DNA of 64,000 bases, taken from a virus. Location of the stretch: the IMG/VR virus record IMGVR_UViG_3300006927_000001, positions 1 to 64,000 of that record; one strand, 5' to 3'. The position numbers and the translations under genes were made by a program. Numbering within the stretch: position 1 is the stretch's first letter; every line of letters begins with the position of its first letter. A model generated the notes under the pieces. The model was not told where the DNA came from. It worked only from the letters and a program-made list of their open reading frames with translations, and did not search any database. Below are positions 26,004 to 40,876 of the stretch, piece after piece.

Positions 26004-26499
26004 ACTCCTGCTCCTCATGCTTCCATTCAATAACTTTTTGACATCCCAAACGTGAAAATATGTCTTTTACATCCACAAATACTTGTAAATGAGCCACGTA
26101 TTCATGTTGAATTGGTATAGATGCCCAAATTCGCCCTTTGATTGCGTCCAAAATCCCCAAAGGATCTTCCAAATGTTCAATGACATCCCATAGAAACCAG
26201 TCCGTAATGTTCTCAGTATCCAAAACTTCTTGTATTATAGAGTACATGAATCCACAGAGCGGATAACGTGAACGTGCAACATTGATTCGTACAACTGAGT
26301 AATCGATACCAATAGTATGCATTCCACGTTCATTCATATAGTTAACAAACCAGCCGGTCCCGCAACCAAGATCAACACCTTTACCACCAAATTCAAACTC
26401 CAGCAACCCGAGAATAGTTTCAACCGTCGATTCACACATAGGTGAATAATATTCAACATTATGCGGCATCAATTTTTTCTCAGCTTCTGGGAGCATCAT
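25975..26499 (-). CDS. Class I SAM-dependent methyltransferase
   Basis: 174 residues from ATG 26497-26499 (AAGGA eight bases upstream; earlier in-frame starts have poorer spacing). Motif I VDLGCGTGWFVNYM, motif II-like HTIGIDYSVVRI, motif IV-like WFLWDVIEHLEDP. UbiE/COQ5-type small-molecule or sugar O-methyltransferase pattern. Sits directly after a sulfotransferase-like gene, which suggests glycan decoration. Confidence 0.8.
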   Translation of the reverse strand: MMLPEAEKKLMPHNVEYYSPMCESTVETILGLLEFEFGGKGVDLGCGTGWFVNYMNERGMHTIGIDYSVVRINVARSRYPLCGFMYSIIQEVLDTENITDWFLWDVIEHLEDPLGILDAIKGRIWASIPIQHEYVAHLQVFVDVKDIFSRLGCQKVIEWKHEEQEYALCFWEAS

Positions 26500-27073
26500 A
26501 CCCATATTCCTTTGCAATGAAACAAAATTCAGCCCAACGAGTACAACTAGACCAATTTACGGTGGGACGTTCACGACTATTGTACGTCTTAGATACGGAA
26601 TCAAATGCTGGCCTACAATGGCCCGCCCTTATACCTAATCCAAACAGAAAATTAACAAGGAAACCATATGACAAATCCTCAACATGCCATTCTAACAAAC
26701 ATTCTTCCGTACAACGTGCTGTCCATTGTATCCAAAATTCAAGCACTTGATCACGCTTATCTACTAAAGAATCCAAAGTACAATGATTATGTAAAAATGC
26801 CCCATACACACTCAAATCGTTACCAAACGCTCCAGGAACCGCAAACATTGAATCTACAACTAAGAATGGATTCCGTATCAAATGTACTTTCACAGCTTCA
26901 GGAAATTGTCCCAAAGAAGGTACTGCCATCCAAGATGAATCCGCATCCATACCTGACTTAACACCATAAGGTGTGAACACAGATTCATGTCCGCATGGTA
27001 ATCCTAAAGCTGTAATAGCTTTAGCTACGTAACCCGTCCCACAACGTCCTGTTCCTGTCACAATTAATTTCAT
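26480..27073 (-). CDS. Sulfotransferase-family P-loop protein
   Basis: 197 residues. The 5'-PSB loop is at the very N-terminus (IVTGTGRCGTGYVAKAIT) and the 3'-PB-type segment is VHLIRNPFLVVDSMF. This is the PAPS-binding layout of sulfotransferases. Substrate unknown; a glycan or host surface polymer is the natural guess. The ATG follows a 66-bp gap that contains only a 16-codon frame. Confidence 0.75.
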   Translation of the reverse strand: MKLIVTGTGRCGTGYVAKAITALGLPCGHESVFTPYGVKSGMDADSSWMAVPSLGQFPEAVKVHLIRNPFLVVDSMFAVPGAFGNDLSVYGAFLHNHCTLDSLVDKRDQVLEFWIQWTARCTEECLLEWHVEDLSYGFLVNFLFGLGIRAGHCRPAFDSVSKTYNSRERPTVNWSSCTRWAEFCFIAKEYGYDAPRS

Positions 27074-28298: not shown

Positions 28299-28808
28299 TC
28301 ACTCCTTGTAATTGTACAACTCAAAATCCTCGGCACCCCACCGACGAACTTGCTCCTTTATGCATCCATCTACATACCAATCTTGATCATCAACATCACC
28401 AATATTCAAATGTGGAATGTTAATAGGTAAACCAGCATTCACCAAACATGTTTCTATATTTTCTACTTGCCAATAATCACACGGAGGTTCAAAACCACGC
28501 ATCATTTCAGAAATTGTAATGTTGAAAAGACCACTACGTAAATGTTCAAAGACAAAAACGTCCCAAGTACATCCATTATGATATTTGACCCAATGAGCAA
28601 ATAAAGAACGAGCACGATCATAGGGATTTCGAACAGTTACACAAAAATTACCTTTAAATCCAAAAGGAATGGATGTAGTATGTTTGTCAATTTGACCATC
28701 TAACTGTGGACCCAATACTAAAACACCTGGCGGACATAAATGACGATGCAAGGACGTCGTATATGTCTTTGGTGGACCAATGATACAATGATTTCGGATC
28801 AATATCAT
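28299..28808 (-). CDS. Sulfotransferase-family protein, paralogue 1
   Basis: 169 residues, similar along its whole length to 39340-39864. Shared blocks: TSLHRHLCPPG, LVLGPQLDGQIDKH and a 3'-PB motif VTVRNPYDRARSLF. The N-terminal P-loop-like segment (GPPKTYTTSLHRHL) is the PAPS site candidate. Acceptor unknown. Confidence 0.72.
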   Translation of the reverse strand: MILIRNHCIIGPPKTYTTSLHRHLCPPGVLVLGPQLDGQIDKHTTSIPFGFKGNFCVTVRNPYDRARSLFAHWVKYHNGCTWDVFVFEHLRSGLFNITISEMMRGFEPPCDYWQVENIETCLVNAGLPINIPHLNIGDVDDQDWYVDGCIKEQVRRWGAEDFELYNYKE

Positions 28809-33940: not shown

Positions 33941-34434
33941 TTTAGTACCTCATTGACCCAAGCAGGTGAACGACAAATCTTGTGAGCCAATTCATCGATT
34001 GTCATTTGTGGATTACGAGACAATATCTTTACTAAATGTTTCTTGTATTCTTCAGGTTTCGTTTCAATACGTGGTTGACTTGGAATTAGAACTATCGATT
34101 CAGTATCATCTAATTTTACGATATGAATTACAATAGTTTTCCAACCCAGCAACTTTGCCACATGTACCCGAGCCAAACCATCAATTAAGACGGCATTTGG
34201 ACCCTGAGCACGACACAAGATTGGATTTTGCTGTCCAACTGACTCCATATTATCTTTCAGTTCTTTTGAACCATATTGACAAGATCGAATACTCTCATAA
34301 ACGATCTTGTCAATTGAAATCGTTTGAAGACCAGGTTTTAATTCACTATCATCTTCCGGGGGTGGAAGTTTGCTGACAGGTGCAATTAAGCAAATGCCAC
34401 ATGTCTGCAGAAATGATCTGCGTTCAACTTTCAT
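33937..34434 (-). CDS. ParB-like protein with a twin-arginine-like leader
   Basis: 165 residues from ATG 34432-34434. The first 25 residues (VERRSFLQTCGICLIAPVSK) look like a short Tat signal: RRSFLQ followed by a hydrophobic stretch. The rest is ParB/Srx-like: ISIDKIVYES, LKDNMESVGQQNPILC, NAVLIDGLARVHVAKLLGWK. Then comes an HTH-like end (DELAHKICRSPAWVNEVLK) shared with the protein at the right edge. A ParB-like protein would not be expected to be exported, so the leader may be incidental, or the domain may act as a nuclease/NTPase outside the cytoplasm. Confidence 0.6.
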   Translation of the reverse strand: MKVERRSFLQTCGICLIAPVSKLPPPEDDSELKPGLQTISIDKIVYESIRSCQYGSKELKDNMESVGQQNPILCRAQGPNAVLIDGLARVHVAKLLGWKTIVIHIVKLDDTESIVLIPSQPRIETKPEEYKKHLVKILSRNPQMTIDELAHKICRSPAWVNEVLK

Positions 34435-35270: not shown

Positions 35271-35381
35271 TCATCCTCCATATACGATGTAAATACCAGC
35301 GATCACAGTAAATGATACCAAAATCGCTATAAAACTAACCACACCTGTAAGCATGAAACTATCCAAAGTTTCAGCTTTCAT
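35271..35381 (-). CDS. 36-residue single-span membrane protein
   Basis: ATG 35379-35381 in an ATGA overlap. Short polar start then one long membrane helix (LTGVVSFIAILVSFTVIAGI) ending YIVYGG. Two genes downstream of tatA; could assist it, act in lysis, or be unrelated. Confidence 0.6.
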   Translation of the reverse strand: MKAETLDSFMLTGVVSFIAILVSFTVIAGIYIVYGG

Positions 35382-35473
35382 CTTAGCTGGCCAAGGTTGA
35401 TAAGGGCACCTTCATCACTGATAAATGTATTGTCTTGATCACGTACTAGTCGAATAACGATTTCACTTTTCAT
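35378..35473 (-). CDS. 31-residue micro-protein
   Basis: ATG 35471-35473, overlapping the end of tatA by 11 bases; MKSEIVIRLVRDQDNTFISD then EGALINLGQLR. A longer frame through tatA DNA exists but would start inside it. Confidence 0.5.
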   Translation of the reverse strand: MKSEIVIRLVRDQDNTFISDEGALINLGQLR

Positions 35474-35639
35474 CGTCCAAGCTCTCCTCAATACATTCAC
35501 GTGCTTCTTCAGCACCTTTACGAAGTTCCGAAAAACTACGACCGATGTTCTTTGCAACGCTCGGCAAGCGATTTCCAAAAAACAACAAAGCAATCCCAGC
35601 AATAATGAACAATTCAACGTGGCCCGGCATACCGATCAT
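35463..35639 (-). CDS. tatA: TatA, twin-arginine translocase subunit
   Basis: 58 residues from ATG 35637-35639, overlapping the previous TGA (ATGA); an alternative ATG is three codons in. Standard TatA plan: short periplasmic start with a Glu (MPGHVEL), one membrane helix (FIIAGIALLFFG), hinge (FGNRLPSV), amphipathic helix (AKNIGRSFSELRKGAEEARE) and acidic tail. In bacteria TatA oligomerises to pass folded proteins carrying RR signals, with TatC as receptor. No tatC was seen in the window, so it would act with the host complex or as a stand-alone membrane-active protein. The FGNRLPSV hinge resembles planctomycete TatA (recollection). Confidence 0.85.
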   Translation of the reverse strand: MIGMPGHVELFIIAGIALLFFGNRLPSVAKNIGRSFSELRKGAEEARECIEESLDDEK

Positions 35640-35827
35640 TTGTTAAGCCTTTCAATTTCTTTGTTAGCACATTTCTCATAAAAGTAACCCATTAAAGCAT
35701 TATAAGTGTTGAATACTTTATGAGTTGCACATTCTTTACAAATTTCACATGTGCGTCCCATCTTTGTTTTGTACGCTGGCATGTTCGACCTCTGAATTTG
35801 TACATGATCGTCACTTGAATCAAACAT
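35636..35827 (-). CDS. Small Cys-containing protein
   Basis: 63 residues from ATG 35825-35827 (GAGG seven bases upstream). Contains CEICKECATHKVFNTY and a further Cys (YEKCANKE), a possible metal site. Directly upstream of tatA and translationally coupled to it. Confidence 0.6.
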   Translation of the reverse strand: MFDSSDDHVQIQRSNMPAYKTKMGRTCEICKECATHKVFNTYNALMGYFYEKCANKEIERLNK

Positions 35828-36065
35828 GTTCAATCCTCACCCAACAGGCTAAAAAGGCTTGTTTGCAACCACCACTGACATCTTTACTGAAATGTAATTT
35901 ACGATCCCACCGATCAGCGGCAGCCATACGTATCAATTGATCCTCGATCGATCGCCTAAACTCATGGAATCCTTCTTCAGAACGTGCAATCTGGATTGCG
36001 GCGGCAATGTCTTTCAATGTAAGGGCTTGTGTACCCTCAACATCGATCTCATCCTTGGTCTTCAT
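35820..36065 (-). CDS. Small helical protein of unknown function
   Basis: 81 residues; LTLKDIAAAIQIARSEEGFH, then EFRRSIEDQLIRMAAADRWD. Two cysteines near the end. Not recognised. Confidence 0.55.
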   Translation of the reverse strand: MKTKDEIDVEGTQALTLKDIAAAIQIARSEEGFHEFRRSIEDQLIRMAAADRWDRKLHFSKDVSGGCKQAFLACWVRIEHV

Positions 36066-39151: not shown

Positions 39152-39343
39152 TTATCTCTCCTTGAAGATTTTCAGAATATCGGATTCAGTATCAACGATC
39201 ACGGGTTTTCCTTTAGGTGAATCCATGAAAGTTCTAACATTTGCTCCTGAACCAAGTTCAATGAGTTCGTTAATACACTCATTACATGTATGATCACACA
39301 TAATATTGTCACAAGAATTTCTACTACATTGTAGCATACTCAT
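39152..39343 (-). CDS. Small Cys-rich protein
   Basis: 63 residues; cysteine-rich first half (LQCSRNSCDNIMCDHTCNEC), then VRTFMDSPKGKPVIVDTESD. GGAGG seven bases before the ATG. Probably binds zinc. Confidence 0.55.
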   Translation of the reverse strand: MSMLQCSRNSCDNIMCDHTCNECINELIELGSGANVRTFMDSPKGKPVIVDTESDILKIFKER

Positions 39344-39864
39344 GAGGGCACCTCCAATGAATAATCAAATTGTTTGAAATCTCTATAAGCCCACCGACAA
39401 ACAGCCCCAACATTTGCAAGATCACCATAGTAATCTTCATTAAAAGGTTTTGACACATTCAAGTGTTCCATGTTCATAGGTAGATCAGCATCCTTCAAAC
39501 ATGATTCTATGTACTCAAGTTTCCAATACTGATAAGGGTGTTTGAATTTCTCCATCATTGTACTGATAGAAGAATTCCAAGGATTCTGTATCAAAGATGT
39601 TTGAACAAAATCCTTCCACATGATATCTTCGTAGTTAGCCAACCAATGCAAGTACAAAGAAATCGCACGTGTATAAGGATTACGAACCACAACAAAGTAT
39701 GGTCCTGTTTCTCCGTATGGTAAATGTATACCGTGTTTCTCAATCGTACCATTTAATTGTGGACCTAAGATCACTTGTCCCGGCGGACAAAGGTGACGAT
39801 GAAGAGACGATGAACCCGTTTTACAGGGTGTCAGTATAATTCTACCATCTGGTAATCGAATCAC
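39340..39864 (-). CDS. Sulfotransferase-family protein, paralogue 2
   Basis: 174 residues. P-loop-like LTPCKTGSSSLHRHLCPPGQ is closer to the canonical sulfotransferase PSB loop (K-x-G-S/T-S) than in paralogue 1. 3'-PB site VVVRNPYTRAISLYLHW. Long shared blocks with 28299-28808. PAPS-dependent sulfation inferred; acceptor unknown. Confidence 0.75.
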   Translation of the reverse strand: MIRLPDGRIILTPCKTGSSSLHRHLCPPGQVILGPQLNGTIEKHGIHLPYGETGPYFVVVRNPYTRAISLYLHWLANYEDIMWKDFVQTSLIQNPWNSSISTMMEKFKHPYQYWKLEYIESCLKDADLPMNMEHLNVSKPFNEDYYGDLANVGAVCRWAYRDFKQFDYSLEVPS

Positions 39865-40705: not shown

Positions 40706-40876
40706 TCACTCCATTGATTTAGGTTCCTTTTTAATTAACTCAGATCGTAATATTTTAACGTTAGAGGGAGCTTCAATACCTAAACGAATTTTATCACCAG
40801 CGATTCTGACTACAGTGATTACAATATTACCATCAATCACAATAGTTTCTTGTTCCTTGCGTGACAATACTAACAT
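40706..40876 (-). CDS. csrA: CsrA, post-transcriptional regulator
   Basis: 56 residues from ATG 40874-40876. MLVLSRKEQETIVIDGNIVI and VVRIAGDKIRLGIEAPSNVK followed by ILRSEL are the full CsrA/RsmA consensus. The RNA-binding arginine of strand beta-5 is kept (VKILRSEL). The homodimer binds GGA in mRNA leaders and alters translation. Being beside a sigma factor, it probably helps switch host or phage expression. Confidence 0.93.
   Translation of the reverse strand: MLVLSRKEQETIVIDGNIVITVVRIAGDKIRLGIEAPSNVKILRSELIKKEPKSME

Follow-up and report, generated by a model that had tools for sequence, protein, structure and literature searches.

Why would a phage carry a gene for TatA, a component of the twin-arginine translocation (Tat) machinery that exports folded proteins? 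The question is raised by a 58-residue reading frame, here called tatA, in a 64,000-nucleotide stretch of viral DNA (the window), which covers positions 1 to 64,000 of the 81,873-bp IMG/VR record IMGVR_UViG_3300006927_000001. A sequence-only reading of the window had recognised a phage-encoded TatA and offered three roles for it: helping to export a phage protein through host TatBC, blocking or flooding the host Tat pathway, or acting alone as a holin-like pore. As checks, it named a search against the family PF02416, a phylogeny with planctomycete TatA, and conservation in related phages. The gene is most likely a genuine TatA captured from a planctomycete host, judging from its sequence, and its product probably works as a TatA, joining host TatC to export phage-encoded proteins that carry Tat signals.

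Is the protein really a TatA? The frame is complete at 35463-35639 within a run of micro-genes, as had been reported, and lies on the minus strand, which the sequence-only reading left unstated; its product is MIGMPGHVELFIIAGIALLFFGNRLPSVAKNIGRSFSELRKGAEEARECIEESLDDEK. The protein matches PF02416 (TatA_B_E) with 30.3 bits (expectation value, E, 2.5e-7), above the Pfam cut-off of 21, and is the sole match to that family in the whole record, in support of the proposed identity. Every part of the architecture described from the letters is present: a glutamate near the N-terminus (Glu9), a single membrane helix, an FG hinge (here FFG), an amphipathic helix, and an acidic tail. AlphaFold2 predicts helices at residues 7-21 and 25-57, that is, a hinge between a short and a long helix, with a mean predicted local distance difference test score of 80. 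A Foldseek search with this model gave no match, which is uninformative for a protein of two helices. The best PDB sequence matches of a profile built from phage and bacterial TatAs (A4) are TatA chains. Glu9 is near-invariant in that profile, and the positions kept across phage and bacterial TatAs are E9, F21, G22, L25, P26, G33, and an E-[FL]-[KR]-[KR]-G segment, which reads Glu-Leu-Arg-Lys-Gly in the window protein. The TatB glutamate that corresponds to Glu9 contacts TatC (PMC13323110). As to whether the protein is a TatA or a TatB, the FFG hinge favours TatA at the sequence level. The NCBIfam models give 32.7 bits for tatAE (TIGR01411) versus 29.4 bits for tatB (TIGR01410), both short of their cut-offs (53.9 and 56.5, respectively); the tatAE cut-off is reached by none of ten phage TatAs.

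Where did the gene come from? Its relatives in bacterial genomes are TatA proteins, and 14 of the 15 loci are planctomycete, with 58-59% identity at best; the best-matching group is the planctomycete LFFGNRLP-type TatAs (42-59% identity). The TatA tree places the window protein with a planctomycete TatA, but weakly (support 86/88) and on few alignment columns. The tree suggests more than one capture by phages, with too few columns to settle the number. Three planctomycete genomes (L129, L130, and L131) each carry two tandem TatA-like genes that differ in type (LFFGNRLP versus LLFGKRLP or similar), and the phage protein resembles the LFFGNRLP member. The tandem genes perhaps divide the roles of TatA and TatB between them. 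The partner of the phage protein is for this reason better described as TatC with host TatA-family partners than as TatBC. The phage host is probably an uncultured planctomycete bacterium.

Could tatA instead be a bacterial gene joined to a phage contig by contamination or misassembly? In favour of such an error, the record is linear and comes from a metagenome collection. However, it belongs to a tailed phage, with matches to terminase, portal, major head protein, DNA polymerase, helicase, and ligase families, and tatA sits within a long co-directional run of phage genes with no tatC beside it. The tatA start codon is overlapped by the stop codon of the upstream micro-gene (ATGA), an arrangement of stop-start coupling, and the next gene begins within the end of tatA with an overlap of 11 bases. 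Overlaps at both ends are what one expects of a gene translated as part of an operon. TatA also recurs in other phages beside comparable genes. Contamination is thus scarcely credible and already largely refuted.

How widespread is phage TatA? Profile scans of IMG/VR gave five TatA-bearing contigs in a first round and 12 more in a second, making 17 besides the window; two TatAs are duplicates (L124 of L123, and L031 of L030). An alignment of eight TatAs proved too diverse to scan a collection with. For some of the contigs, genes that match phage families (helicases, PhoH, primase, an integrase, and an RtcB-like ligase) make a mis-sorted bacterial tat operon unlikely. TatC (PF00902) does not appear above its cut-off in 17 TatA-bearing records, the window included. 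Conservation in close kin is another matter: no TatA above the cut-off was found in phages related by terminase, polymerase, or nuclease, most of which are fragments, and no close relative in the searched collections covers the tatA region. Conservation can thus be tested only on the TatA genes of other phages. Among the isolate phages in INPHARED, a tblastn search with the window TatA gave no match, and queries with other phage TatAs gave only weak matches to unannotated Listeria and Staphylococcus records and one faecal contig. A TatA family is absent from PHROGs. The literature searched holds no phage-encoded TatA; the matches opened concerned TATA boxes, promoter motifs, a primer, and a plant name.

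Is the gene under selection, or merely carried? A host gene captured recently and without a function under selection, or one that serves a host-like trait with no bearing on phage cargo, would fit a tree with several captures and a weak planctomycete placement, and it would fit a phage group with no near relative to show conservation. The window tatA having no close relative in the searched collections, the ratio of nonsynonymous to synonymous substitution rates (dN/dS) was measured in the largest phage TatA clade, a related clade of eight TatAs. Pairwise values in this clade lie at 0.08-0.34; the tail varies, while little changes in the hinge and amphipathic core. This pattern of purifying selection is what TatA function predicts, and passive carriage would find it hard to explain. 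The window gene is, moreover, intact and translationally coupled, and its neighborhood is non-random, as described below, so a functionless capture or an unrelated host-like trait is unlikely.

What does tatA sit next to? In the first set of contigs, twin-arginine leaders were noticed at the starts of genes near tatA in G010, G011, and the window. For example, the leader-bearing gene in G010 directly follows tatA, opening 13 bases past its stop codon, and in G011 both genes that flank tatA carry such leaders. The second set was retrieved by TatA alone after this pattern had been seen, and the pattern was taken as a prediction for it. Eight of these 12 contigs (seven from a single group rich in guanine and cytosine, here called GC-rich, and L127) have a leader gene within ~1.5 kb of tatA, commonly abutting it; the distance is 4.5 kb in L123 and L124. 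To put a number on the association, the contigs were grouped into nine lineages including the window, one of which comprises the eight GC-rich contigs (L117, L119-L123, L125, and L126), with one representative per lineage and a canonical leader defined as RRxF plus an uncharged hydrophobic stretch. In five of the nine lineages, a gene with such a leader lies on the tatA strand less than 2 kb away. Random positions in the same DNA equalled this in 17 of 20,000 trials, and the same test found no RRxF leader gene in 369 kb of phage DNA that lacks tatA, two high-GC isolate phages included. Strict matches in the 15 contig pieces are all on the tatA strand. A looser rule yields 16 leader starts within 2 kb of tatA, all on its strand and spread over 10 of the 15 contigs, as opposed to one in the control; two of the 16, both in G012, are doubtful. 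These two (MHQEIETENKRRSLI and VNSRRELMM) pass the looser rules but look spurious, and they were left out of the five lineages. An in-frame Shine-Dalgarno sequence (AGGAGG) as the source of the arginine pair was ruled out by the varied codons used (CGC AGA, AGA AGA, and CGT CGC).

The linkage gives comparative support to the first of the three roles, export through the host machinery, which is the best supported of them; the other two, holin-like action and Tat blocking, are less likely. Inhibition of host machines by small phage proteins is common, and a TatA that competes for TatC or floods the membrane during takeover would be in keeping with the retention of a polar residue expected to contact TatC, and with the many phage Tat-leader genes that manage without tatA. 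Yet an inhibitor could do without a conserved amphipathic helix and without Tat-leader genes linked to it, and we consider blocking improbable. More improbable still is a stand-alone role in lysis or killing, holin-like or through weakening of the membrane. TatA and the small holins TpeE and BhlA may weaken membranes alike (PMC9527704), but TpeE is unrelated in sequence (PMC9527704), family searches of the micro-gene run recognised no lysis gene beside tatA, and a holin would not predict linked Tat leaders. Neither role predicts the retained translocation residues.

What would the phage protein export? In the window, the predicted cargo is a 165-residue ParB-like protein encoded ~1.0 kb downstream of tatA on the same strand, with the leader MKVERRSFLQTCGICLIAP. 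Its N-terminus has VERRSFLQ followed by a moderately hydrophobic, uncharged stretch, TCGICLIAPVS (h 1.78). The ParB-like matches (phrog_3264, E 6.3e-9; phrog_3951, E 2e-6) start at residues 36 and 31, respectively, and the leader therefore looks like an addition. The proteins behind the leaders are diverse across the TatA-bearing loci; for example, the leader protein of L119 (9314-9952) has stretches that match Phage_capsid (E 4e-7) and Phage_portal (E 2e-4). By eye, phage Tat-leader proteins also look modular, with terminase-like, LamG-like, and tail-propeller-like pieces in L120:9290-9913, L078:6050 (minus strand), and L104:3046.

How might the export work? On present understanding, TatC-containing complexes recognise the twin-arginine leader; many copies of TatA are then recruited, and the membrane is locally perturbed so that folded cargo crosses (PMC13323110, PMC9527704). 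TatA can also bind cargo without the help of TatBC, and this improves transport (PMC4361764). The phage TatA would insert into the cytoplasmic membrane, associate with host TatC, the phage having none of its own, and raise or retune Tat capacity, leading to folded export of phage proteins with twin-arginine leaders. In large amounts, it could increase capacity, give phage cargo an advantage, or take over from host TatA while host synthesis is shutting down. What is observed is the linkage and, in one related clade, purifying selection; assembly with host TatC, transport itself, and the activity of the exported protein are steps that we infer. A broader possibility, which is tentative and rather doubtful, is that a number of uncultured phage lineages possess a module dedicated to export, made up of their own TatA and a changing set of small leader-bearing proteins. 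The leader would have been fused to segments of phage proteins that are normally internal (ParB-like here; capsid- or portal-like and possibly terminase-like elsewhere), and these would end up in the periplasm or at the membrane, for example to exclude competing phages. It is a guess that such pieces protect the cell against other phages.

Several points weigh against TatA-aided export of phage cargo. First, three lineages (G009, G012, and L115) have no convincing leader gene near tatA, and in L118 it is 9.8 kb away. Second, five of the nine lineages are weakly grouped in the TatA tree (support 84/81), so the nine may not all be independent captures. Third, the leaders were called by motif rather than by a trained predictor or experiment, and the Pfam TAT_signal scores of the leader proteins fall below its cut-off. 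Fourth, how the lineages were grouped, where the distance limit (2 kb) was set, and which motif forms were accepted were choices of the analysts, with several versions tried. Fifth, a ParB-like domain is an odd export cargo, and no homologue of the window's ParB-like protein turned up in the collections searched. Sixth, among 36 IMG/VR contigs (L075-L110) chosen for an ATG start encoding the strong Tat leader MKRRNF[LF]K, only one has tatA. The rule is therefore one-way, and TatA would be an aid to phage Tat export rather than a requirement. For ~26 of these 36 contigs, the motif plausibly forms the Tat leader of a small phage protein.

The features of the locus are collected in Table 1. Elsewhere in the window, all on the minus strand, the phage encodes CsrA (40706-40876; PF02599, E 2.8e-22) and a ribonucleotide reductase that matches a B12-dependent insertion domain family (49952-52120). 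Two similar proteins (28299-28808 and 39340-39864) have LHRHLCPPG...LGPQL in common and look by eye like sulfotransferase-type P-loop proteins, of which there may be a third (26480-27073).

Table 1. Genes and predicted features around tatA (window positions)
Feature	Position	Strand	Remarks
Micro-gene directly upstream of tatA	35636..35833	-	its TGA overlaps the tatA ATG (ATGA)
tatA, 58 aa	35463..35639	-	membrane helix ~residues 7-21, FFG hinge, amphipathic helix, acidic tail
31-aa micro-gene	35378..35473	-	ATG within the end of tatA
36-aa micro-protein, single membrane helix	35271..35381	-	ATGA-coupled to the preceding gene
54-aa protein, two CxxC pairs then one membrane helix	34774..34938	-	same gene run as tatA
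Predicted twin-arginine leader, residues 1-25	34360..34434	-	RR codons CGC AGA, not an in-frame Shine-Dalgarno sequence
Tat-leader protein, 165 aa	33937..34434	-	MKVERRSFLQTCGICLIAPVSKLPPP, then ParB-like domain ~36-114 and helix-turn-helix-like C-terminal end

What are the implications of a phage tatA? Phages use host export routes and bring holins. A phage that supplies a component for exporting folded proteins beside its own Tat-signal proteins is undescribed in the databases and literature searched. The linkage suggests that certain phages strengthen the export machinery of the host so as to move proteins of their own beyond the cytoplasm. It directs attention to a class of phage proteins that may work outside the cytoplasm during infection, for which tatA could serve as a simple genetic marker, and the role of phage TatA is directly testable in Tat mutants.

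How does this compare with known systems? The small holins TpeE and BhlA likewise have a short membrane helix followed by an amphipathic helix; their sequences are unrelated, and the window protein lacks the conserved T-Q-G motif described for TpeE before the membrane helix (PMC9527704) and has TatA-specific positions. Like morons and other auxiliary genes, phage tatA is a host-derived gene retained by phages, but it encodes a protein-export component and has neither a PHROGs family nor a description in the literature searched. Bacterial TatA (PF02416, with the planctomycete tandem paralogues) is alike in sequence, in the glutamate at the start of the membrane helix, in the FG hinge, and in the amphipathic helix; the phage copy differs in having no tatC, a shorter tail, and a place among phage micro-genes. 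It is an ordinary TatA in an unreported setting, and the repeated genomic association makes a specific mechanism testable. The arrangement also recalls PhoD of B. subtilis, which, as Pop et al. are said to have described in 2002 (cited in PMC9527704), forms an autonomous Tat system with TatAd/TatCd. In both cases, a Tat component is genetically tied to particular cargo, but the phage supplies TatA only and would rely on host TatC, and its cargo varies between phages.
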